Below are positions 14,191-47,825 of a stretch of 64,000 nucleotides of DNA, in pieces. The translations under genes and the position numbers were made by a program. The DNA is from an uncultured Rubrobacteraceae bacterium (GTDB taxonomy: Bacteria; Actinomycetota; Rubrobacteria; Rubrobacterales; Rubrobacteraceae). The stretch is taken from contig CADCVH010000073.1 in NCBI GenBank assembly GCA_902806085.1, positions 1-64,000 of the forward strand. Reading direction: 5' to 3'. The notes under the pieces were generated by a model that was not told the origin of the DNA, searched no databases, and saw only the letters and a program-made list of their open reading frames with translations. Numbering within the stretch: the first letter of the stretch is position 1; each line of letters opens with the position of its first letter.

Positions 14191-14200
14191 GACGCAGGAT

Positions 14201-14233
14201 CTTAACGGGTCCTTGACGCACTCTTAACGGGCG
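14201..14233 (+). promoter_or_regulatory. 11-bp direct-repeat array A
   Basis: CTTAACGGGTC|CTTGACGCACT|CTTAACGGGCG, exact 11-bp spacing. Confidence 0.7.
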
Positions 14234-14333: not shown

Positions 14334-15377
14334 ATGACGAGGGGGAATCTGTCCGACCGCGGGCTTCTGCGGGCCGTGCTGGTCGCCTTCGCGTTGCTGG
14401 CGGTCTGGCGCTTCGCGGCGGCGGTGGCCACGGTCGCGCTCTTGCTCGCGACGGCGCTTCTTTTGGCCGTGGCGCTCTCGGCGCCGGTCGAGGCGCTACA
14501 CCGCAGGAAGGTGCCGAGACCGGCCGCCGTGGCGGCCATAGTCGTGGTCGTCCTGGCCATCCTGGGGGTCGTCGGCTACCTGCTGCTGCCGACCCTCGTC
14601 CGAGAAGTGGCGCTGCTCGCGTCCTCGTTGCCGGATGCCGTACAGCAGCTCGTCGAGCGGGTGAGGGAGCTGGCGAACAGGTTGGGGGTCAAGATCGGCG
14701 GCGGGAGCGGCGGCGGGATCTCGCCGCGCACCCTGGCGAACGCCGCGCGCAGGGTCCTCGGCGGCCTACTCGGCCTCTTCGGCGGGCTGGCGTCCCTCTT
14801 TACAGCGCTGCTCGTGCTGCTCTTCGTCCCCCTGTACCTCACGGCGATGCCGGAACCGGTGTCGGACTGGGTGGTGAGGCTGTTCCCGCCGGAGAAGAGG
14901 GCGAAGGCGCGGGAGACGCTTTCCGAGTCCCGCACGAGCCTGCTCGGCTGGCTGCAGGGACGCCTGTTCTCGATGGTCGTGGTCGGGGTCCTCGCCACCG
15001 TCGCCCTTTACTTTATAGGCGTGCCGGGCGCCCTCTTTCTCGGCGTGTTCTCGGGGCTCGTCGCCTTCGTGCCCATAATCGGCTCCGTGGCGGGGGCTAT
15101 ACCGCCCCTGATCCTCGCGTTCGCCGGCAACCCGTGGGACGTCTTGTGGGTCCTGCTGGCCTACCTGGCGATCCAGCAGGTAGAGAGCAACCTGCTCACA
15201 CCCATCGTGATGCAGAAGGCCGTCTCCCTGCACCCGGTCGTCGTCATAGCCTCCGTCACGGTGGCGGGTGCGGCCTTCGGCGTCCTGGGCGCCCTGCTCG
15301 CCGTCCCGGCCACGGTCGTGGCCGGCATCCTGATCCAGAAACTGTGGTTCGAACGCCTGGAAGGTTCCTCCGGATAA
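14334..15377 (+). CDS. AI-2E/PerM-family membrane transporter
   Basis: Multi-TM; LFLGVFSGLVAFVPIIGSVAGAIPPLIL, QQVESNLLTPIVMQKAVSLHPVVVI. Confidence 0.93.
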   Translation: MTRGNLSDRGLLRAVLVAFALLAVWRFAAAVATVALLLATALLLAVALSAPVEALHRRKVPRPAAVAAIVVVVLAILGVVGYLLLPTLVREVALLASSLPDAVQQLVERVRELANRLGVKIGGGSGGGISPRTLANAARRVLGGLLGLFGGLASLFTALLVLLFVPLYLTAMPEPVSDWVVRLFPPEKRAKARETLSESRTSLLGWLQGRLFSMVVVGVLATVALYFIGVPGALFLGVFSGLVAFVPIIGSVAGAIPPLILAFAGNPWDVLWVLLAYLAIQQVESNLLTPIVMQKAVSLHPVVVIASVTVAGAAFGVLGALLAVPATVVAGILIQKLWFERLEGSSG

Positions 15378-16453: not shown

Positions 16454-17803
16454 CTAGGCCTGGTCCACGATCTCCTGCAGCTCCCTGTCCAGCGTGTTGG
16501 CGGCCTCCTCCGGCGACTTCTCGCCCTTGACGCAGGCGTTGAACTGCTCGGCCATCACGAGCGACATGTCCGAGTAGTAGGGGGACAGGGGCCGCGGGCG
16601 GGCGTTCTTTATGGCGCTCTCGCCCAGGGCGATAACCGGAACCCCCTCGACTATCTCCTCGTCGTCGTAGAGGGCTTCGAGCGTCGGCAAGAACGAGCCG
16701 TTCAGCGCCCGGAACTTCTGCTGCTCGGGGGCGATGGCGAACCTCACGAACTCGTAGGCCGCGTCCTTCTCCTCCTCGGATGAGGCGTCGTTCAGGTAGA
16801 AGTTCCAGCCGCCCAGGCCGCTGAAGCTTTGCCGCCCACCACCGGCCACCGGCAACGGGGCGACCCCGATCTGGCCGGGTTCGATGTTCGACTGCCCCTC
16901 CTCGGAGGCAAGCGCGTACATGTAGGGCCAGTTGCGGCAGAAGACCGCCCGGCCGTTCAGGAAGGCGGCCTGGCACTCCTGCTCGGCGTAGGTGGAGACC
17001 GCCCGGGGCGCCACGCCGCTCTCGACCATGCCCCGCTCGATGCTCAGGCCTTCCACGGCGCGCGGGTCGTCAACGACCACCCTCTCGGGGTCGTCCCGGT
17101 CCACGACGTCGCCGCCGGCGGTCCAGATGTACTCCAGGCCGTTGACGGTGCCGCCCTCGTACTCCGCGGCCTGGAACACGAAACCGTCCTCGGCGTCGGA
17201 CTCCCGGGTAACCCTGGTCGCCTGCTCCTCGAGCTCCTCCCAAGTCTCCGGGGGCTCCGAGAAACCGGACTCCTCGAGCAGGTCCCTGCGGTAGTAGAGC
17301 ATCCCGGCGTCCGTGAACCACGGTACGCCGTAGACCCCGTCCTCGTAGGTGCAGGACTCGACCGGAGCCGGCAGGAAGGCCCGGCGTTCTTTTTCGGTGA
17401 AGCGGTCGGAGAGGTCTTCGATCCAGCCGTTCGCCGCGAACTGCGCCGGCCAGACGACGTCGCCCCCGATCAGGTCTATCTCCCCGCCGCCGGCCTGGAA
17501 CTCCGTCTTCACCTGGTTGAAGTATTGGCCGGTGTCGGCGGCCATCACGCGGTACTTCGCCCTGTAGCGGCCTTCGAACTCTTCGTTGAACCGGCGGACT
17601 ATCTCCTCGAGGCTGCCGGAGTTGTCGGGCCCGAAGGAGAAGGTGAACTCGGTGACCCCCGACCCTCCCTGGCTTCCTCCGCCGCACCCCGCCGCCCCGA
17701 GCAAGGCCGCCCCCGCCAGGGCCGAACCCCCGACCTTCAAGAAGCTTCTTCTGCTCAGCCCCCTGCCTCCGGGTACCTGACGTTGCAAGTTTGCCTGCCG
17801 CAT
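16454..17803 (-). CDS. Extracellular solute-binding protein family 1 (Tat-type lipoprotein)
   Basis: LSRRSFLKVGGSALAGAALLGAAGCGGG; carbohydrate/G3P-type SBP body. Confidence 0.92.
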   Translation of the reverse strand: MRQANLQRQVPGGRGLSRRSFLKVGGSALAGAALLGAAGCGGGSQGGSGVTEFTFSFGPDNSGSLEEIVRRFNEEFEGRYRAKYRVMAADTGQYFNQVKTEFQAGGGEIDLIGGDVVWPAQFAANGWIEDLSDRFTEKERRAFLPAPVESCTYEDGVYGVPWFTDAGMLYYRRDLLEESGFSEPPETWEELEEQATRVTRESDAEDGFVFQAAEYEGGTVNGLEYIWTAGGDVVDRDDPERVVVDDPRAVEGLSIERGMVESGVAPRAVSTYAEQECQAAFLNGRAVFCRNWPYMYALASEEGQSNIEPGQIGVAPLPVAGGGRQSFSGLGGWNFYLNDASSEEEKDAAYEFVRFAIAPEQQKFRALNGSFLPTLEALYDDEEIVEGVPVIALGESAIKNARPRPLSPYYSDMSLVMAEQFNACVKGEKSPEEAANTLDRELQEIVDQA

Positions 17804-17867: not shown

Positions 17868-17917
17868 CGTTAGCGACGGTAAGGCCCGCGTAAAGAAACC
17901 GTAAGCGCCCGGCAAAG
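17868..17917 (-). promoter_or_regulatory. ~11-bp direct-repeat array B
   Basis: Minus strand CTTTGCCGGGCG CTTACGGTTT CTTTACGCGGGC CTTACCGTCG CTAACG; TAACAT -10-like at 17847..17842. Confidence 0.6.
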
Positions 17918-17985
17918 ACCGTCCCGGCAAAGACCGTCCCGGCAAAGACCGTCCCGGCAAAGACCGTCCCGGCATAGGCCGTTCC
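17911..17985. repeat. 15-bp tandem repeat (GGCAAAGACCGTCCC), 4 perfect + 1 degenerate copy
   Basis: Direct reading. Confidence 0.97.
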
Positions 17986-17994
17986 GGCCGGGGC

Positions 17995-19423: not shown

Positions 19424-20542
19424 CTACCTCATCTCCTCTAGCTCGACCGTAAACCCGCGCGCCTCGCCCTCCCCGGCGACGGTCAGCTCCACGGGTTCGC
19501 CGGGGTCGTAGCCGCGCAGGACCGCGAGAAGGTCCCCGGTGCCCGTGACCTTCTCGCCTTCGACGGCGGTCACGACGCCGCCCGGCTCGATGCCGGCGTC
19601 CGAGGCCGGGCCGTCTGGGTCCAAGCCGGTGACTATCGCCCCGGACTCGACGGAGGCGCCGAACCGGCGCGCGGCCTCCGGGGTCAGGTCGGCGAGGGAG
19701 ACGCCCACGTAGGGGTGCTCGGCCCGGCCGTCCTCGATGATCGCGTCCGCAACGTCCCTAGCCGTGGCGGAAGGGATGGCGAAGCCGAGGTTGACCGCCC
19801 CCGTCTGGGCGGGCGGCAGGTAGGCGACGTTGATGCCGACGACGTCGCCGTTTTGGTCCACGAGCGCCCCGCCGGAAGAGCCCGGCGAGATGGCCGCGTC
19901 GGTCTGTATGAGGTCCACCAGGGCGCTCTGCTGGGGCCCGCCGGTGATCTCGGGCGGTATCTCGCGGTTGAGGCCGCTTATGATGCCGGAGGTGACGGTG
20001 GACTGGAAACCCGAGGGGCTGCCGGCGGCCACGGCGAGCTGGCCGACGACGAGGTCCCGGCTGTCGCCGAACTTCGCGGCGGGGAGACCCTCCCGGTCCA
20101 CCTTGACCACGGCTATATCGGTGTACGGGTCGCCGCCGACGACCTCGCCCGTCTCCACCGAGCCGTCGGCGAAGGCGACGTTTACCGTGTCCGCGCCCTC
20201 GACGACGTGGTTGTTGGTGACGACGTAGCCGTCCTCGCGGTAGATCACGCCGCTACCCAACCCCTGCGCCTCCTGGGGCCCGTAAGGCGACGTCTGGATC
20301 GAGGATACGTTGACCTGCACCACGCTCGGCTCGATCTCCCGCGCCACATCGGCCACCGGGGAGACGGCGGCGGCGGGCGCGTTTCGCCCCGCCTTCGCGT
20401 CCTGCCGGGTCCCCGCCTCCTCTCCCTGGGCCCCCGCCTCCTCTCCCCCGCAGCCGGCCGCCAACAAGCCGGCCGCCAGCAAGGCAACGCCGAGCCGTTT
20501 GGGCGGCCGAAGGGTTCTTCTCTTGATGCTGTTATCTGTCAT
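19424..20542 (-). CDS. Trypsin-like serine protease with PDZ domain (HtrA/DegP)
   Basis: GSGVIYREDGYVVTNNHVVEGAD, DIAVVKV, QTDAAISPGSSGGALVDQNGDVVGIN, C-terminal PDZ. Confidence 0.97.
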   Translation of the reverse strand: MTDNSIKRRTLRPPKRLGVALLAAGLLAAGCGGEEAGAQGEEAGTRQDAKAGRNAPAAAVSPVADVAREIEPSVVQVNVSSIQTSPYGPQEAQGLGSGVIYREDGYVVTNNHVVEGADTVNVAFADGSVETGEVVGGDPYTDIAVVKVDREGLPAAKFGDSRDLVVGQLAVAAGSPSGFQSTVTSGIISGLNREIPPEITGGPQQSALVDLIQTDAAISPGSSGGALVDQNGDVVGINVAYLPPAQTGAVNLGFAIPSATARDVADAIIEDGRAEHPYVGVSLADLTPEAARRFGASVESGAIVTGLDPDGPASDAGIEPGGVVTAVEGEKVTGTGDLLAVLRGYDPGEPVELTVAGEGEARGFTVELEEMR

Positions 20543-20801: not shown

Positions 20802-21000
20802 TGTTGGCGTTTCGGTTCTGCCAGGCCCGGTAGGGTGTCCGGCCGCAGTAGGCGCGGAGCTTCTCCTCGTAGACCCTGTCGGTGGGAATGTGGGGGTTCC
20901 AGGCGGGGGTCGATATCGCCGAAGCTCCCAAGCATCTTTGACCTCCTCGATCTCCTGGTCTGGCGCTTGCGTTCCGGGGTCCGCCGGGGTCATTTTTCGG
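20802..21000 (-). pseudogene. Small ORF with apparent -1 frameshift in a C5 run
   Basis: MTPADPGTQAPDQEIEEVKDAWELRRYR then, if one C is restored near 20905-20909, PPAWNPHIPTDRVYEEKLRAYCGRTPYRAWQNRNANS*; start ATG overlaps upstream stop (ATGA). Boundaries approximate. Confidence 0.45.
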
Positions 21001-21475
21001 TGGCCCCGGCGGACAAGGGTTCTCCCAGCTTTCCCCCGACGAAGCCGCCGAACAGGTTTATCAAGAAAAGGACGAAACCCGCCAGGAGGGCCGCGGAGGC
21101 GAGCCCGAAGCCCACGGGCGGAAGGGCTGCTCCCTCCGCGAAGACGACGCCGAACATGCCCAGCACGGCGGCAAGTATCAGGCCCGCGATCAGCCCGAGA
21201 ACCGCCGACAGGGAGCCGTGCTTGCCGCCGGAGTAGCCCGCCACCCTGGCCGCGACGTAGCCCCCGATCAGGTAAGACAGGAACCCGGCGACCAGGGAGA
21301 TGACCACGAGCGTCGCGGTGAGTTCTCCACGCTCCACCGGCGGCTCCGAGAAGGAGGCGTAGAGTATCCGCAACACCGGACTCACGAGGAGCCCCGCGAA
21401 GACGGCCACGGCCCATCCCAGGGCCACCGCCCCCCACCGGGTTCCGCCGGCCTTCTTGCTGTCCACGAGGGTCAT
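20990..21475 (-). CDS. Conserved membrane protein (four TM)
   Basis: VALGWAVAVFAGLLVSPVLRILY..., GGYVAARVAGYSGGKHG. Confidence 0.75.
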   Translation of the reverse strand: MTLVDSKKAGGTRWGAVALGWAVAVFAGLLVSPVLRILYASFSEPPVERGELTATLVVISLVAGFLSYLIGGYVAARVAGYSGGKHGSLSAVLGLIAGLILAAVLGMFGVVFAEGAALPPVGFGLASAALLAGFVLFLINLFGGFVGGKLGEPLSAGATEK

Positions 21476-21543
21476 CCCTTCGAGTAGGGGCTGTTTCCGA
21501 CGCCCCTATTCTCTTCGCGGACCGTTAACCGCCCGCCCACCGG

Positions 21544-21572
21544 CGTAAGCGTTCGGCAAAGGGCGCGTTAAG
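21544..21572 (-). promoter_or_regulatory. ~11-bp direct-repeat array D
   Basis: Minus strand CCTTAACGCGC|CCTTTGCCGAACG|CTTACGCC. Confidence 0.5.
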
Positions 21573-21602: not shown

Positions 21603-22482
21603 CTACGCGACGATGGCGCGCAGAAGATCGCCCTGGCGGCCCTCGCGCAGGATCTCCTCGGCCTCGCGCTGTATCTGCCGCACGCGTTCGCGGGAGACGC
21701 CCATCTCGCCGCTGAGCTTGGCGAGCGTGGCCGCGTCCTCTTCGTCCAGGCCGTAGCGGCGCACGAGCACGTAACGGTGGCGCTCGGGCAGCCCGCCCAC
21801 GGCCTCCCCCAGCCGCGCCAGCGCCAGGCCCTGGATCGTCTCCCCGGCCGGGTCCGGCGCGCGGACGTCCTCGACGAGTTCGCCGATCTCCGACCCGTCT
21901 CCGCCCTCCGAGGAGAGCTGCCGGTTGAGGCTGGTGGCGTCCGGCATAGCGCCCTTCGCGAACTTCACCTCCTCGGGATCCCATCCCAGGAACTCCGCGA
22001 GCTCCGCATCCGTCGGTTCCCGGCCCAGGCGCGGCAGAAGGTCCCCGCGGGCGCGCGAGATCTTGCGGATCTTCTCGCCCATGTGCACCGGCACCCGGAT
22101 GGTACGGGCCTTGTCGGCCACGGCCCGCCCGACGGCCTGCCTTATCCACCACGTAGCATAAGTCGAGAACCTGTAGCCCCGATCCGGGTCGAACTTCCCG
22201 ACGGCGGTCATGAGGCCGACGTTGCCCTCCTGGATGAGGTCCTCGAAGGGCAGGCCCGGCGAAGCCCCGCGGTACCTCTTGGCGACGCTGATCACGAGCC
22301 GCAAGTTCTTCTCGACCAGCCGGTGCCTGGCGCGCTCGTCCCCGGCCTTCGCCCTCCTGCTCAACTCCGCCTCCTCCCGGCGCGTGAGCAGGTCGCCCTT
22401 GTCGATGCGGTCGAAGTAGCCCCTGATGAGCCCGGGCGTCTCGCCCGGTCGTTCCGCTCGATGCCTGCCTGCGGTATCGGAC
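21603..22482 (-). CDS. RNA polymerase sigma factor, sigma-70 group 2-like
   Basis: [58 protein letters not shown]; region 4 [19 protein letters not shown]. Start chosen near VSDTAGRH; approximate. Confidence 0.93.
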
Positions 22483-22540
22483 ACGTTTGCTCCTTCGCGG
22501 TCGTCGGTCGTTCTGCCGAAAGCCCCAGTTTCGCGGCCGT

Positions 22541-22660
22541 TGCTTAAATGCCCGTAAAGCCCCGTTAAGGGACGATAAAGCTCCGGTAACACGTTGGTAA
22601 CCGGCCTCTGTCTCCGTGCCCGCGGAGTTTCTGTTAGGGGACGGTAAAGGTTCCGTTAAC
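22541..22660. promoter_or_regulatory. Direct-repeat array C in the sigma factor / sensor kinase intergenic region
   Basis: TAA cores at about 22545, 22555, 22566, 22576, 22587, 22598 (10-11 bp apart), then 22635, 22645, 22657. Confidence 0.65.
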
Positions 22661-22721
22661 GACCGGCGAGCCGGCGCCTGTCGTGGGGCGGTGGTCGGCG
22701 ACCGAAAGGTACAATCGTCCC

Positions 22722-24428
22722 GTGCGATACAGGTTCCGAGTCTGGATGCCGCTGCTGGCCGTCCTCATAGTGTTGCTCTCGATCGGGACGCTCCTCCTCT
22801 ACGGGTTGCCGGCGGCCAGGACGCGCCTCGGGCAGTTCTCCGAAGAACGCGCGCTCGCGCGGGCTGCTGCGGCCGCGCGAGGTGTGGAGACCGCCGGGGG
22901 CAAGGACCTCCGGCGCGCGCTGATCATCGCCGCGCGCACGGGCAAGGGGGAGGTGCTGATCGTCAGCGCGCAGGCCCGCGTGGTGGACCGCGGCGGCCCC
23001 GAGATGCTGCCCTCCCCGCCGAAGTTTGTGTTGCGTTCGGCGGCCGAGGGCCGCCGGACCATCGAGGAGGTCGAAGGGGTCAGGATCGCGACCGTCCCGC
23101 TTATCCGCGACGGCCGCCTCGACGGTGGCCTGATCTTCGTGCCAGACGAGGCCGAGAACACCATCTTCGGCATCTTCTCGCGCAGCAGCGTGGAGGCGGC
23201 GGCGATAGCCGCGGTGCTGGGCGGCGGCCTGATGCTCCTCGTCGCAGCACTCCTTTCGAGGCGGGTGGAGCGGCTGACCCTCGGGGCCAGATCCATCGAG
23301 CGGGGAAACCTCTCCTACCGCCTCGAACCCGGCTTCGACGACGAGCTGGGGGGGCTCGCCAAGAGCTTCAACGCGATGGCGGCCAAGCTCGAAGGTTCTT
23401 TCTCCGAGCTGGAGGAGCGCAAGGCGGCCCTCGGCGTGATCCTGGACAACCTCAGCGAGGGCGTCCTCGCGACGGACCTTGAGGGCCGGATCATGTTCGC
23501 GAACCCGGGCGCCCGGGCGATGCTCGGGATGGACGGCGAGGAACCGCCTGAGGAACATCCTGAGGCGCTGCCGAACCCGTGGGCCGAGTTCGACCTGCCA
23601 AAAGCGGTGGCCCGGTGCGCCGAAGAGGGGGAGTGCGGGGAGGCCCGCGTCCGGGGCGAGGAGACCTACCTGCGGGTCAACCTGCGGTCCCTGCCCGAGC
23701 ACGACGAGCACGGTGGCGGGGTGCTCGTCGTCATCCAGGACCTCTCCGAGGGCAGGCGATTGGAGGCGAACCAGCAGCGTTTCTTGGCGAACGCCGCCCA
23801 CGAGCTGAAGACCCCACTGACCACCATCCTCGGCGCCTCCGACCTGCTTCTTGACGGGGACGAAGACGACCCCGAACTGCGCCGCCGCTTTCTCGGGCAC
23901 ATAAACACGGAGGCCCGACGCATGCAGCGGCTCTCGGAGACCCTGCTGCGCCTGGCCCGAACAGGGTTCGACCTGCGGGAGCCCCACCTGGGCGCGGTCG
24001 ACCCGAACGAGGTCGCCCGGAGGGCCGCCGGGAGCATGGAGCCGCTCGCGGAGAGCGCGGGCCTGGAGCTCTCCGTCGAGGGGCACGGGGCCCGGCTCCG
24101 CGCGGATGAGGAGTGGCTAGAGCAGGCGCTGCTCGTGCTACTCAGCAACGCGATCAAGCACTCGAGGCGCGGCGGACACGTCCGGTTGCGCGTGGACGGG
24201 GCCAGCGTGACGGTGGAGGACGATGGGGAGGGCATGGGCCAGATAGACCTCCGCCACGCCTTCGAGCGCTTCTACCAGGGCGCGGGGAGCTCCGGCGGCT
24301 TCGGGCTCGGCCTGCCCATCTGCAAGGAGTTGGTCGAGCGGATGGGGGGCAAGATCTCCATAGAATCCGAGGAAGGGAGCGGCACCACCGTGAAGATACA
24401 CCTGCCGGAGGCCGGATCGGATGCCTAA
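22722..24428 (+). CDS. Sensor histidine kinase (PhoR-like, HAMP-PAS-HisKA-HATPase)
   Basis: FLANAAHELKTPLTTILGASDLLL H-box; VLLSNAIKHSRRGG N-box; GSSGGFGLGLPICKELVERMGGKI; -10 TACAAT 6 nt before GTG. Confidence 0.95.
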   Translation: MRYRFRVWMPLLAVLIVLLSIGTLLLYGLPAARTRLGQFSEERALARAAAAARGVETAGGKDLRRALIIAARTGKGEVLIVSAQARVVDRGGPEMLPSPPKFVLRSAAEGRRTIEEVEGVRIATVPLIRDGRLDGGLIFVPDEAENTIFGIFSRSSVEAAAIAAVLGGGLMLLVAALLSRRVERLTLGARSIERGNLSYRLEPGFDDELGGLAKSFNAMAAKLEGSFSELEERKAALGVILDNLSEGVLATDLEGRIMFANPGARAMLGMDGEEPPEEHPEALPNPWAEFDLPKAVARCAEEGECGEARVRGEETYLRVNLRSLPEHDEHGGGVLVVIQDLSEGRRLEANQQRFLANAAHELKTPLTTILGASDLLLDGDEDDPELRRRFLGHINTEARRMQRLSETLLRLARTGFDLREPHLGAVDPNEVARRAAGSMEPLAESAGLELSVEGHGARLRADEEWLEQALLVLLSNAIKHSRRGGHVRLRVDGASVTVEDDGEGMGQIDLRHAFERFYQGAGSSGGFGLGLPICKELVERMGGKISIESEEGSGTTVKIHLPEAGSDA

Positions 24429-25119
24429 GGTGCTGGTGGTCGAGGACGAGCCCGCCGTGAGGGACGTGGTCGAGCACGCCCTCTCCCGCGAGGGCATCGA
24501 GACCGCGGCCGTAGGCGACGGGGAGGCCGCCCTGGAGCGGCTGCGGGGCCAGGAGACCTTCGACCTGGTGATCCTGGACGTCATGCTCCCCGGGATGGAC
24601 GGCGTCTCCGTGTGCCGGGAGCTGCGGGCCGGGCAGGCCAACAGGGACGTCCCGGTGCTCATGCTCACCGCCCGCGACGACGAGACGAGCGTGGTGGTGG
24701 GCCTCGAAGTCGGCGCCGACGACTACGTCACCAAGCCGTTCAGGCCCCGCGAGCTCGTCAGCCGCGTGCGGGCCCACCTGAGGCGCCGGCGCATGGAGGC
24801 GGACCCCGGGCCCGGGCGGAGGTTGGAGTTCCCGGGTCTCAAGATGGACCTCCTGCGCCGGGAGGTCGTCGGCCAGGACGGCGTGGCCCCCCTGACGGCC
24901 AAGGAATTCGAGGTGCTCGCCTTCCTGGCCTCGTCCCCGGGGCGCGTCTACAGCCGGGAGCAGATCATGCGCCACCTCTGGGACGGGGACTTTTTCGGCG
25001 AGGCCCGGGCCGCCGACGTCCACGTCCAGCACATCCGCAAGAAGGTCGAACCCGACCCCCAGAACCCCCGCTACGTCCTGACCGTGCGCGGCGTCGGCTA
25101 CAAGTTCGCCGACCTATAG
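24421..25119 (+). CDS. OmpR/PhoB-family response regulator
   Basis: MPKVLVVEDEPAVRDVV, DLVILDVMLPGMDG, DDYVTKPFRPRELVSRV, winged-helix C-terminus. Confidence 0.97.
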   Translation: MPKVLVVEDEPAVRDVVEHALSREGIETAAVGDGEAALERLRGQETFDLVILDVMLPGMDGVSVCRELRAGQANRDVPVLMLTARDDETSVVVGLEVGADDYVTKPFRPRELVSRVRAHLRRRRMEADPGPGRRLEFPGLKMDLLRREVVGQDGVAPLTAKEFEVLAFLASSPGRVYSREQIMRHLWDGDFFGEARAADVHVQHIRKKVEPDPQNPRYVLTVRGVGYKFADL

Positions 25120-27259: not shown

Positions 27260-29107
27260 CTACTCCACCGTGACGCTTTTCGCGAGGTTGCGGGGCTTGT
27301 CCACGTCCAGACCGCGCCCCGTGGCGACGTCGTGGGCGAGGAGTTGCAGCGGCACGCTCCAGACCAGGGGGCGCAGGATCTCGGGCGCCTCCGGGACGGG
27401 CAGCACGACGCGGGCCACGCGCCCCGCGGCCGGGTCGTCTTCCCCGGCCACGGCGATCACGTTGGCGCCCCGCGCGACGGTCTCCTCGACGTTAGAGAGG
27501 GTCTTCTCGCGAAGGACCCCCTCACCGAGAATCGCCACGACCGGACACTGCTCGTCGACGAGGGCTATGGGGCCGTGCTTCATCTCGCCGGCCGCGTAAC
27601 CTTCAGAGGGGATGTAGGAGATCTCCTTAAGCTTCAAGGCGCCTTCGAGCGCGACCGGGAAGGCGGGCCCGCGCCCGAGGAAGAGCGAGCATCCGGCGTC
27701 CTCAAAGAGTTCGACCGCCGCCCCTATCTTCCCTTCGAGCAAGGCCAGGGTCGCCGCCACCTTCTCCGGCGCGAGGCGCAAGTCCCGGCCCAGGGCGAGG
27801 AGGTCTCTCTCCGGCAGGGTCGCTTTGACGCGGGCGAGCTCCAGGGCGAGCAGGTCCAGCGCGGCGACCTGGGCGGCGAAGGCCTTGGTCGAGGCGACGC
27901 AGATCTCAGGCCCCGCCTCCGTGAGCAGCACCGCGTCGGCCTCGCGCGTGATGAGCGAGCCCCGCGTGTTTGTCACGGCCAACACCTTCCCCCCGAACCC
28001 GCGGGCGGCCTCCACCGCCGCGAGCGTGTCCGTCGTCTCCCCGCTCTGGCTTATGGCGACGACGAGGGTCCTCTCGTCCCCGATGGGATCCGCGTAGCGG
28101 TACTCGCTGGCGACGGCCACCTCCACGGGGACGCGGGCGAGGCGCTCGATGAGGCCCTTGCCGAGCAGGCCAGCGTGCAGGGCCGTGCCGCAGGCCACGA
28201 CGACGACGCGGTCCACGTCGGAGAGGTCGAGGCCCGTCTCCGAGAGGTCGACCCGGCCGTCGGCGTCCAGGCGATCCGCGAGGGTGGCGCGGAGGGCTTC
28301 GGGCTGCTCGTGGATCTCCTTCGTCATGAAGTCCTCGTAGACGCCAAGCTCGACGTCCTGGGCGTCCCAGTCCACCTCGAACGGCTCGCGCTCGACCGGT
28401 TCGCCTTCCCGCGTGAAAAGGGCGACCGAAGCGCCCGTGACCTCGACGACCTCCCCGTTCTCCACGACCAGAAACCGGCGCGTCTCCCCAAGAAGCGCCT
28501 GCACGGCGCTCGCGAGAAAGTTCTCCCCCTCCCCGAGCCCGACCACGAGCGGGCTCTGGTGCCGGGACGCCACGATGACCCCGGGCTCCTTCACGCCCAC
28601 CGCCGCGACCGCAAAGGAACCCTCCAGACGCCCCAGCACCGCCGCGAGCGACCCGCGCAACGGCTCACCGGGGTTTGCCTCCACCCTCTCGGCGAGCAGG
28701 TGCGCCATGACCTCGGTGTCGGTCTCGGACTCGAACCGGACGCCACGCCCTGCCAGCTCGGCCTTGATCTCCGCGAAGTTCTCGATGATGCCGTTGTGCA
28801 CCACGGCCACGGTCCCGCCACCCCCGAGCTGCGGGTGGGCGTTCTTCTCGCTCGGGCGGCCGTGCGTGGCCCAGCGGGTATGCCCGATGCCGGCCCGCAT
28901 TCTGGAGAGGTGTCCGTTACGGGCTGCCACGGCCCTGCCCAGGTTCTCCAGGCGTCCGACCTCCCGGATCGGCTCGATCCCGCCCTCGCCGTGCAGCGCG
29001 AGCCCGGCCGAGTCGTAACCGCGATACTCCAGATGCGAGAGACCTTGCATGAGCACCTCCACGCACCGCTCCCTGCCAACGTAACCGACGATGCCGCACA
29101 CGGGCAT
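27260..29107 (-). CDS. glmS: Glutamine--fructose-6-phosphate aminotransferase (isomerizing)
   Basis: CGIVGYVGRERCVEVLMQGLSHLEYRGYDSAG; two SIS domains; C-terminal DVDKPRNLAKSVTVE. Confidence 0.98.
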   Translation of the reverse strand: MPVCGIVGYVGRERCVEVLMQGLSHLEYRGYDSAGLALHGEGGIEPIREVGRLENLGRAVAARNGHLSRMRAGIGHTRWATHGRPSEKNAHPQLGGGGTVAVVHNGIIENFAEIKAELAGRGVRFESETDTEVMAHLLAERVEANPGEPLRGSLAAVLGRLEGSFAVAAVGVKEPGVIVASRHQSPLVVGLGEGENFLASAVQALLGETRRFLVVENGEVVEVTGASVALFTREGEPVEREPFEVDWDAQDVELGVYEDFMTKEIHEQPEALRATLADRLDADGRVDLSETGLDLSDVDRVVVVACGTALHAGLLGKGLIERLARVPVEVAVASEYRYADPIGDERTLVVAISQSGETTDTLAAVEAARGFGGKVLAVTNTRGSLITREADAVLLTEAGPEICVASTKAFAAQVAALDLLALELARVKATLPERDLLALGRDLRLAPEKVAATLALLEGKIGAAVELFEDAGCSLFLGRGPAFPVALEGALKLKEISYIPSEGYAAGEMKHGPIALVDEQCPVVAILGEGVLREKTLSNVEETVARGANVIAVAGEDDPAAGRVARVVLPVPEAPEILRPLVWSVPLQLLAHDVATGRGLDVDKPRNLAKSVTVE

Positions 29108-29485
29108 ACCTCCCTATTTTCCACGGACGAAGCCTCTTGAGGCGAAGAGAAAGGCGCAGGACGAAAAGTGTCCTGCCGGGCCGAACGGCGTTTTGTCCCC
29201 GGCGTCGCCGCCGGATTTTGTCGCCGCCCTATCGACCGCCCGAAGCCGAGACGCACCCGCCGAATAACTCGATGAACGTCTCCCTCGTCGACTCCCGTGT
29301 TGCGGACCTCTAGGTCCCGGGAGCCCTGGCGCTTGTTCTTGTTCTCTCCGTCCCGCAAGCCCCGACCATCCTGTCGTGACCACCGGGCGTTACCCTACGT
29401 AGATTTCTCTGCTCTACCTCCCATCTTCCGGGCCGTGGGACCGTTAACTCTACCCGCCGCGTCGCAAAAAAGAAACCCGGACCCG

Positions 29486-45172: not shown

Positions 45173-45940
45173 ATGAGACGGCGGCATAGGGTAGGATACC
45201 GTGGCCCCTCGCGGGCGGGCGAGGGGCAAGACCTGGAGGTTTCTGGAGGCTTGGACGAGACTATATTGTTGGTCGACGACGACGCGGCCCTTCTGGAGGT
45301 GACCTCCATCGTGTTGGCGTCGGAGGGGTACCGGGTCGTGACGGCGATGGATGGCACGGAGGCTTTGAGGGCGCTCGAGGGCGAAGATTTGGACCTCGTG
45401 GTCCTGGACATCATGCTGCCCAGGATGAGCGGGTTCGAGGTCTTGAAGAAGATGCGGGAGCAGAGCGACGTGCCGGTGGTGTTGCTCACGGCCAAGAGCC
45501 AATCGGTGGACAAGGTCGTGGGGCTCGAGCTCGGGGCCGACGACTACATAACCAAGCCCTTCGACACCAAGGAGTTGCTCGCCAGGATCAAGGCGATCCT
45601 GAGGCGGTTCGGGCGCGGGGGGCGGGGCCGGGAGGGGCTCTTGCGGCTCGGGAACCTGGAGTTGGACCCGGGGGCTTACACGGTCAGCCGGGACGGCCGG
45701 CTGTTGGAGCTCACGCCGACGGAGTTCAAGATCCTCGCGTTGTTGATGCGGCGTCCTGGGCAGGCCTTTACGCGGGCCCAGATCTCCGAGGCCGTCTCGA
45801 CGGGTTCGCACTACCTCGCCAGCCGCTACATAGACGTCCACATAAGCAGGCTCAGGGCCAAGGTCGAGGGGGACCCGTCCAGGCCGCAGATCATACAGAC
45901 CGTGCCGAGCGTGGGTTACCGGGCCGCCAGGCCGGGTTAG
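45173..45940 (+). CDS. OmpR-family response regulator
   Basis: ETILLVDDDAALLEVTSIVLASEGY, DLVVLDIMLPRMSG, DDYITKPFDTKELLARI, wHTH; true start may be TTG near 45252. Confidence 0.93.
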   Translation: MRRRHRVGYRGPSRAGEGQDLEVSGGLDETILLVDDDAALLEVTSIVLASEGYRVVTAMDGTEALRALEGEDLDLVVLDIMLPRMSGFEVLKKMREQSDVPVVLLTAKSQSVDKVVGLELGADDYITKPFDTKELLARIKAILRRFGRGGRGREGLLRLGNLELDPGAYTVSRDGRLLELTPTEFKILALLMRRPGQAFTRAQISEAVSTGSHYLASRYIDVHISRLRAKVEGDPSRPQIIQTVPSVGYRAARPG

Positions 45941-45950
45941 GAGCGGCGCC

Positions 45951-47825
45951 ATAGAGAAGAAGAGCAAGAGAAGGGGGCTGCTGCCCCCGGCAAGCTTCCA
46001 GGCCCGCATCTTCGTGGCCCTGGTCGGCATCTCCTCCGTGACGAGCCTTATAATCGGCCTCGTCCTCTACTCTTTCGCGCAGGACCAGCTTACTGACGCG
46101 GAGAACGAGCTCCTCCGCCAACGCTCCCAGACGGCGAACGCCGGCGCCCAGGAGTTTCTGGAGGGCCAGCGGGACCCGGAGGACCAGACCCTCCCCCCCG
46201 CCGAGGTCTACGCCGAGGAGCTCGTCACCACGGTCGGCGACCCGACGGGCCTCGAGGTCCTCTACGTCGGCCCCGACGGGGAGCCGCTGGCCGCCCGCGA
46301 CGGGCTCGGGGACCCGGCGGCCCCGGGCCGGACGCTCGACAGGCTCGGGCTGGAGCCCGGCACCCTGGAGGAGGTGGCCGCGTCCTCCCGACAGGAGGGT
46401 CGGACGGTTTGGAGCGAGGAGAGGTCGGGCTACGTGGCGGTCCTGCCGCTCGTGAACCGGGACGGGACGTCCGAGGGCACGCTCATCTACGACGTTCCAA
46501 AAGACGAGATCGGCGAGACGCTCCGCTACTTGCGCTTCGGCATCGTGGGGGCCATTTTGACTAGCGTGCTCCTCGCCGCCGCGGCGAGCCTGCTGCTGGC
46601 CCGCCAGCTCACCCGCCCGCTCTCGGAGACCCGGGACGCGGCGATAAGGGTAGCCTCGGGGGATTACGCCGCCGTCGTGCCCGTCAAGAGCCGCGACGAG
46701 CTCGGCGAGCTCGCCCGGGCCTTCAACTACATGGCAGAGGAAATAGAGCACTACGTCGGGGAGATCCAGGAGCAAAAAAGCCGCCTGGAGGCCGTGCTGG
46801 AGGCCTCCCCCGAGGCGGTTGTCGCCACCGACGGCGCCGGACGCGTGACCATGGTAAACCCCGCCGCCGCGAGGATGCTCGGCGTCAGGCACTCGGACCG
46901 GGGCCGCGCGCTCGACGAGCTCGGCACGCCGGGGGGCATCGTCCGGTGCGTCCGGGAGGCCGACGCCAACGGGGTCGCCGTCCGGGAGGTGGACCTCGGG
47001 GAGAAGACGTTCTGGGCCTACGCGGCGAGGATGGACCGTGGGGAAGACAACGGCGCGGCCGGGGACGCCGGCATCATCCTCGCGGTCAGGGACATAACGG
47101 AGCACCGCTCGCTGGAGAAGGCCAAGACGGCCTTCGTCTCGGACTTCTCCCACGAGCTCAGGACGCCGCTCACGACCATACAGAGCGCCGTCGGCCTGCT
47201 GGAGCGCGCCCGCGAGAGGCTCGACCCGCTCGAGCACCGCGCCCTGGAGCTGGCCGAGGGCGAGCTCGCCCGCATCCGCGCGATGGTCGAGGAGCTCCTG
47301 ACGCTTGCCCAGATGGACTCCTGGCAGTACCAGCTCGAGGTCGGCCCGGCCGACCTGGGGGACGTGATCCGAACCGCCATGCGCTCCGTGGAGACGAAGG
47401 CCCAGAGGTTCGGGATAGAGGTCTACTTCGAAGACGCGGTCGAGCACCGCTGCGTCTGCGACGTCCAGAAGGTCTACCAGGTCTTCCTGAACCTCCTGGA
47501 CAACGCCATAAAGTACTCAGACCCCGGGGACCGCGTGGACGTTTCGGTCGACGAGGACGTCTCCTGCATAACCGTCCGCATCAAGGACACGGGCGTCGGC
47601 ATCCCGGAGGAGGACCTCGAACAGCTCTTCGAGCGCTTCTACAGGGTAAACAAGGACCGCTCGCGCGCCACAGGCGGGAGCGGCCTGGGCCTCGCCATAA
47701 GCAAGCAGATCGTGGAGATGCACGGCGGGGGCATCTCGGTAGAGAGCGAGGTCGGCCGCGGTTCGACCTTCCTGATCCACCTTCCCAAAACCCCGCCCTC
47801 CCGCTCTTCGAGCTATGCACTCTAG
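45951..47825 (+). CDS. Sensor histidine kinase (TM-extracytoplasmic-TM-HAMP-PAS-HisKA-HATPase)
   Basis: FVSDFSHELRTPLTTIQSAVGLLERA; LLDNAIKYSDPGDRV; GGSGLGLAISKQIVEMHGGGISVESEVGRGSTF; start codon unresolved (ATA 45951 or GTG 46014). Confidence 0.9.
   Translation: MEKKSKRRGLLPPASFQARIFVALVGISSVTSLIIGLVLYSFAQDQLTDAENELLRQRSQTANAGAQEFLEGQRDPEDQTLPPAEVYAEELVTTVGDPTGLEVLYVGPDGEPLAARDGLGDPAAPGRTLDRLGLEPGTLEEVAASSRQEGRTVWSEERSGYVAVLPLVNRDGTSEGTLIYDVPKDEIGETLRYLRFGIVGAILTSVLLAAAASLLLARQLTRPLSETRDAAIRVASGDYAAVVPVKSRDELGELARAFNYMAEEIEHYVGEIQEQKSRLEAVLEASPEAVVATDGAGRVTMVNPAAARMLGVRHSDRGRALDELGTPGGIVRCVREADANGVAVREVDLGEKTFWAYAARMDRGEDNGAAGDAGIILAVRDITEHRSLEKAKTAFVSDFSHELRTPLTTIQSAVGLLERARERLDPLEHRALELAEGELARIRAMVEELLTLAQMDSWQYQLEVGPADLGDVIRTAMRSVETKAQRFGIEVYFEDAVEHRCVCDVQKVYQVFLNLLDNAIKYSDPGDRVDVSVDEDVSCITVRIKDTGVGIPEEDLEQLFERFYRVNKDRSRATGGSGLGLAISKQIVEMHGGGISVESEVGRGSTFLIHLPKTPPSRSSSYAL

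Follow-up and report, generated by a model that had tools for sequence, protein, structure and literature searches.

Evenly spaced half-site arrays at the predicted promoter hub of an actinobacterial two-component system and a neighboring group-2 sigma factor gene

The window analyzed here, by which we mean the whole 64-kb stretch of DNA, contains a divergent spacer between a group-2 sigma-70 gene and the sensor kinase gene of a two-component system, and this spacer carries an array of six half-sites followed by a second array of three (arrays 4 and 5, Table 1). We read the array of evenly spaced half-sites as a real, conserved docking platform, the ligand of which is most likely the neighboring response regulator, P0003. 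It is probable, in our judgment, that P0003 binds the arrays, activates the gene of a stress-type sigma factor along with a local regulon of membrane and envelope genes, and autoregulates. The regulatory logic is known and this instance is new; sequence alone was enough to derive a binding motif and a promoter rule, and to outline a small local regulon, for what appears to be an uncharacterized actinobacterial two-component system.

On the plus strand, the TAA cores of array 4 lie at 22545, 22555, 22566, 22576, 22587, and 22598, at steps of 10, 11, 10, 11, and 11 bp. The mean step of 10.8 bp is one helical turn, so all six sites would lie on the same face of the DNA. Array 5 has the cores GTTAG, GTAAA, and GTTAA at two steps of 11 bp. 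The first-pass annotation had described six TAA-core repeats plus a second cluster of three; both clusters are present, except that the first member of the second has TAG and not TAA. It had also held that the array fills almost the whole intergenic region, which was overstated, as the likely start codons are 237 bp apart and the arrays take up about 90 bp. The underlying observation, a half-site array between a sigma-70 gene and a sensor kinase gene, is borne out by simulations of both chain length and matrix score. The longest chain of TAA cores at 10- to 12-bp steps in the window is the six of array 4, while among 200 composition-matched 64-kb sequences from a first-order Markov model, the longest chain was at most 2 in 191, 3 in eight, and 4 in one. 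With a half-site matrix trained on orthologs only, arrays 4 and 5 score 28.5 to 28.7, compared with a best score of 19.0 in 60 simulated windows. A terminator-like stem at 22612-22627 occurs at the chance rate and was set aside. A longer sigma factor reading frame, which runs from 22592 through the array, probably does not mark the real start; we rejected the array as coding for the N-terminus of the sigma factor because both genomes with the open frame have a good start and ribosome-binding site downstream of the array.

Table 1. Coordinates of the genes, half-site arrays, and predicted promoter elements (window positions unless a contig is named).
Feature	Position	Strand	Remarks
Array 1	14199..14229	-	three half-sites; upstream of the AI-2E-family gene
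AI-2E-family membrane protein	14334..15377	+	
Extracellular solute-binding protein (SBP_bac_1)	16454..17803	-	
Array 2	17868..17919	+	about five half-sites; upstream of the solute-binding-protein gene
HtrA/DegP-type serine protease with PDZ	19424..20542	-	in the gene run downstream of memb161
memb161 (P0004), small membrane protein	20990..21475	-	no family match
memb161 -10, GAGAAT	21508-21513	-	belongs to array 3
Array 3	21523..21572	+	half-sites at 21523, 21544, 21555, 21566; oriented to memb161
Sigma-70 gene P0001, group 2	21603..22484	-	GTG start at 22484, GGAG upstream
Predicted sigma -10, GAAACT	22527..22532	-	weak, 3/6; 9 nt after proximal half-site TTTAAGC
Array 4, six half-sites	22542..22602	+	GCTTAAA 22542, CGTAAAG 22553, CGTTAAG 22563, GATAAAG 22574, GGTAACA 22585, GGTAACC 22596; orientation suited to activating the minus-strand sigma gene
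Array 5, three half-sites (kinase-proximal box)	22632..22660	+	TGTTAGG 22632, GGTAAAG 22643, CGTTAAC 22654; consensus in relatives GTTAGCNTTCGGTAAAGGTTCGGTTAA
Predicted kinase -10, TACAAT	22710..22715	+	6 nt before the start codon
Sensor histidine kinase P0002	22722..24428	+	likely GTG start at 22722; extracytoplasmic N-terminal part, HAMP, PAS, HisKA, HATPase_c
Response regulator P0003, OmpR/PhoB-type	24421..25119	+	receiver and winged-helix DNA-binding domain; presumed array-binding protein
pst-operon box	G000:C132:4170-4197 (L177 4156-4198)		

The genes around the arrays were classified from their domains. P0001 has sigma regions 1.2, 2, 3, and 4 (Pfam) without the RpoD-specific N-terminal part, as expected of a group-2 sigma factor. 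P0002 and P0003, whose genes overlap by 8 bp, form a two-component system of the OmpR/PhoB family, with a receiver and a Trans_reg_C winged helix in the regulator and a HisKA-HATPase kinase as its partner (Pfam, over cut-off); none of the three proteins reaches the cut-off of a named equivalog model, PhoB, MtrA, CseB, PnpS, and WalK among them. Behind memb161 follows a run made up of a short reading frame, the HtrA-type protease gene, a small membrane-protein reading frame, and a gene for a Gmad2 protein.

Across the 64-kb window, a matrix built from relatives only found just five clear arrays, scoring 25 to 29 with the next best site at 16.1. All five lie within 9 kb around the two-component system, and they precede the AI-2E-family gene, the solute-binding-protein gene, memb161, the sigma factor gene, and the kinase gene; arrays 1 to 3 are additional to the sites of the first-pass annotation. 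Between memb161 and the kinase gene, all three groups of half-sites point to the minus-strand genes, with the kinase gene behind them. Abutting array 2 is a 15-bp tandem repeat (CCCGGCAAAGACCGT, 5.4 copies, 17908-17988), each unit of which carries the half-site variant GGCAAAG at a 15-bp step that is out of helical phase.

In 9 of 37 arrays, read towards the target gene and anchored at the gene-nearest half-site, a -10-like hexamer begins at offset 10, with 9 nt between it and the proximal half-site. The most at any single offset in 1000 shuffles was 4. Several of the nine are orthologous memb161 promoters and hence not independent. Four further arrays have a -10-like hexamer at offset 21, one repeat further on. 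The solute-binding-protein promoter has TAACAT at this offset, one helical turn on, and its counterpart in genome G006 likewise has TAGCAT. In E. coli, PhoB binds 8-bp repeats joined by 3-bp linkers, located 10 bp upstream of the -10, and at PhoB-activated promoters the repeats stand in for the -35 (PMC1906773). The same class II layout, with tandem 11-bp repeats of which the last lies about 10 nt before the -10, is found at memb161. At the sigma promoter the -10 is also in place, reading TTTAAGC-9 nt-GAAACT in the window, where it is weak, and CTTAAGC-9 nt-AAGAAT in G006, where the -10 matches at 4/6. Since the spacing from array to -10 is that of the published PhoB layout, activation is the likely sign of control at both genes, and by this analogy the regulator likely activates the sigma and memb161 promoters. 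A consensus promoter scan found no sigma-70 promoter, a result that we set aside because activated promoters here are without a -35. At the kinase promoter, the predicted -10 (TACAAT in the window, TATAGAAT-like in orthologs) is about 6 to 8 nt ahead of the start codon, which implies a leaderless mRNA, and nearly all orthologs share this arrangement.

Absence of repeats from the orthologous intergenic region, named in the first-pass annotation as the observation that would speak against a functional array, was looked for and did not materialize. In a leave-one-out motif test, the array upstream of the kinase gene is present in 10 of the 11 genomes having this two-component system; nine regions outscored every one of 400 shuffles of their own 250 bp, G010 outscored all but one, and in G024 the two-component system is present and the kinase upstream region does not stand out from its 400 shuffles. 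In every clear ortholog, GTTAGCNTTCGGTAAAGGTTCGGTTAA or a variant of it precedes the kinase gene. G006 has arrays at the same three positions as the window, with array 4 kept as five half-sites (locus L105), and G004 and G005 have several arrays near their pair. A triple-site pattern allowing at most one mismatch gave 33 matches in the 11 genomes with the pair versus 3 in 14 others, where the others include G017 with a basal relative of the pair, and one of the 3 matches (in G011) is a phosphate-operon box. A stricter three-site pattern taken from the orthologs gave only two matches, both unrelated, and a scan of genome contigs with P0002 returned one useful relative (L001, on the same contig as G002:C247), the others being distant kinases. 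G002 has 21 pattern matches over several contigs, a higher number than any other genome searched, and carries the pair in more than one copy; its regulon seems to be expanded. Two arrays lie within about 200 bp of each other in G007 (G007:C13:1663-1876), a genome in which no ortholog of the pair was found; the pair may have been lost, may be unassembled, or the arrays may be read by another regulator.

Control by the adjacent two-component system, as the first-pass annotation had suggested, is supported by motif position, co-occurrence, regulator type, and promoter spacing, because the motif precedes the system in nearly every ortholog and at paralogous loci, strong matches are far more common in genomes with the system, P0003 belongs to the OmpR/PhoB type, and the spacing of the sigma promoter is that of a PhoB-type activated promoter. 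From what can be read off directly, namely the array, its conservation and co-occurrence, the spacing, and the gene order, we infer binding, activation, signal, and cascade as follows. The region would be the promoter hub of the two-component system, where P0003 would bind as dimers, head to tail, to 11-bp-spaced half-sites of the form SGTWARS (CTTWACC when read towards the target gene). Array 4, predicted to overlap the sigma -35 region and to leave 9 nt between its last half-site and the -10, would activate the sigma factor gene as a class II, PhoB-like promoter, and array 5, behind the leaderless kinase-regulator promoter, would autoregulate this promoter, either positively or negatively. 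Through arrays 1 to 3, P0003 would also control the AI-2E-family gene, the solute-binding-protein gene, and memb161 with the run that contains the HtrA gene. In this lineage, a duplicated group-2 sigma factor gene has probably been inserted between memb161 and the kinase gene and come under an array of its own, which would add a sigma-factor relay to an envelope-type response.

Several other explanations can be weighed against this one. The spacer is richer in A+T than its surroundings (61% G+C versus 69% for the window), and TAA cores might cluster in it by chance; this is contradicted by the Markov simulations, by shuffles of local composition, and by conservation across genera, and we regard it as next to negligible. 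The arrays could also be bound by another OmpR-family regulator, such as the universal MtrA/WalR-like one (G000:C118:68239-68901), which is the sister group to the P0003 clade among the regulators compared and belongs to a family with similar sites. This regulator, however, also occurs in genomes without arrays, and at its own locus the best score is 12.9, short of a strong array. All array-associated regulators, including the paralogs at separate loci, form a single clade (support 100/99); this clade, the co-occurrence of the motif, and the position of the MtrA/WalR-like regulator outside the clade together point to P0003, and binding by another OmpR-family regulator appears quite unlikely. 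An improbable reading takes the arrays for ordinary Pho boxes and the two-component system for a phosphate-starvation PhoR-PhoP pair. In half-site (CTTAACC-type), 11-bp pitch, and -10 spacing, the arrays almost match the Pho boxes of cyanobacteria and E. coli (PMC1906773); with the PhoB model P0003 reaches 216 bits, and P0002 comes close to the PnpS/PhoR models. Both proteins nevertheless stay below the PhoB, PnpS, and PhoR cut-offs (215.8 bits for P0003 versus 296.2 for PhoB), phosphate genes (pst, phoU) are absent among the array-bearing targets identified in the window, and pstSCAB-phoU lies on another contig (G000:C132) under a distinct box. This pst-operon box, TTTAAC-N5-TTTARC-N5-GTTTAC, is highly conserved and found once per genome in 19 of 25 genomes, ten of them without this pair, so another regulator must read it there. 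A phosphate regulon is thus unlikely. The pst boxes score 18 to 30 with the array matrix, which means that the matrix alone cannot separate related regulators, and cross-talk between the arrays and the pst boxes is possible.

Alternatively, the array might act on the kinase operon (and memb161) alone, with the sigma factor gene a passenger that has no functional link to it. Only the window and G006, 2 of the 11 genomes, have the sigma factor gene between memb161 and the kinase gene; the array is older than the gene, and the sigma -10 is weak. Against this, in both genomes an extra array faces the sigma factor gene with an exact 9-nt spacing to a -10-like hexamer, a separate array is retained at memb161 (window) or at its former position (G006), and a second genus has the same pairing with a different sigma factor. 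We consider a passenger role improbable, and the co-control of an alternative sigma factor proposed in the first-pass annotation is supported, for a gene found here in only two of the genomes examined.

The history of the sigma factor gene can be traced in part from gene order. In most orthologous loci, the divergent neighbor of the kinase gene is memb161, which in the window lies beyond the sigma factor gene, and we take the sigma factor gene to be a lineage-specific insertion and memb161 to be the ancestral divergent partner. In a tree of group-2 sigma genes, a fast-evolving pair (100/100) made up of P0001 and its counterpart in G006 falls among those of the same genus, while the array-bearing sigma genes of G009:C3 and G021:C22, which adjoin a paralogous kinase-regulator pair, sit on a distant branch, 1.08 changes per column. 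At these paralogous loci (L112 4407-8012 in G009:C3, L113 4658-8283 in G021:C22), the kinase matches only the cytosolic part of P0002, the pair adjoins the group-2 sigma gene and a divergent gene for a 259-aa protein, and arrays face both genes. The only group-2 sigma genes preceded by arrays are those beside this system or its paralog; at 28 other group-2 sigma loci, no array was found. Two independent recruitments are the simplest reading of these patterns. We give about even chances to the broader proposal that the promoter hub of this regulator family has taken in group-2 sigma genes on two or more independent occasions, with 11-bp arrays acquired each time. If true, two-component systems would have a recurrent evolutionary path to a sigma relay, here in a regulon clustered around the regulator's own genes, and two separate captures would offer a natural test of how two-component systems acquire sigma-factor relays.

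Among known systems, the closest parallel in site architecture is the Pho box of class II PhoB promoters, bound by E. coli PhoB and cyanobacterial SphR (consensus CTTAACCT), with which the arrays share 11-bp tandem direct repeats, CTTAACC-like half-sites, a last repeat about 10 nt before the -10, and a winged-helix regulator (PMC1906773, PMC4415409). Unlike in Pho systems, the targets here are sigma factor, HtrA, AI-2E, solute-binding-protein, and membrane-protein genes and not phosphate genes. In its targets, the system resembles MprAB of mycobacteria and corynebacteria, which likewise has an OmpR-family regulator acting on sigma genes, an HtrA protease gene, and its own operon. In M. tuberculosis, sigE, sigB, and pepD, an HtrA protease gene, are under direct MprAB control (PMC3062566), and in C. 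glutamicum MprA binds TKTTAAGAAM, a motif resembling the half-sites here, upstream of sigB, sigE, htrA, and mprA (PMC12113857). Whereas pepD/htrA lies directly downstream of mprAB, the HtrA gene in the window is on the opposite side, behind memb161; here the sigma gene is divergent and adjacent and the 11-bp arrays are long. The arrays link the system to an alternative sigma factor and an HtrA protease, a combination of targets that it shares with MprAB, at a differently organized locus.

Two-component control of the transcription of an adjacent sigma gene is also seen in the cell-envelope stress response of S. coelicolor, in which CseBC controls sigE (PMC6767563). SigE, though, is an ECF sigma factor whose gene shares an operon with cseABC and is the only CseB target known, while the sigma factor here is of group 2, divergently encoded, and one of several targets; P0003 also scores far below the CseB model cut-off (193.8 versus 350). 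Its best NCBIfam model is MtrA, at 223 bits and below the cut-off of 300, and MtrA binds short direct repeats separated by 5 nt (PMC5650626). P0002 scores 141 against an MtrB cut-off of 450, and in Rubrobacteraceae-like genomes another, universal regulator scores higher with the MtrA model, at 252 bits. By analogy, the system would work like its MprAB and CseBC parallels, but it does not show the membership features tested for each of them.

Other regulatory elements were observed elsewhere in the window. A glmS ribozyme (RF00234, 100.7 bits) lies at 29173-29344 on the minus strand, upstream of the glmS gene at 27260-29107. The window also holds a second OmpR-type system (45263-45928 and 46287-47792), whose regulator has a 97% identical counterpart on a separate contig (G000:C111:597-1262), which suggests that the duplication was recent.
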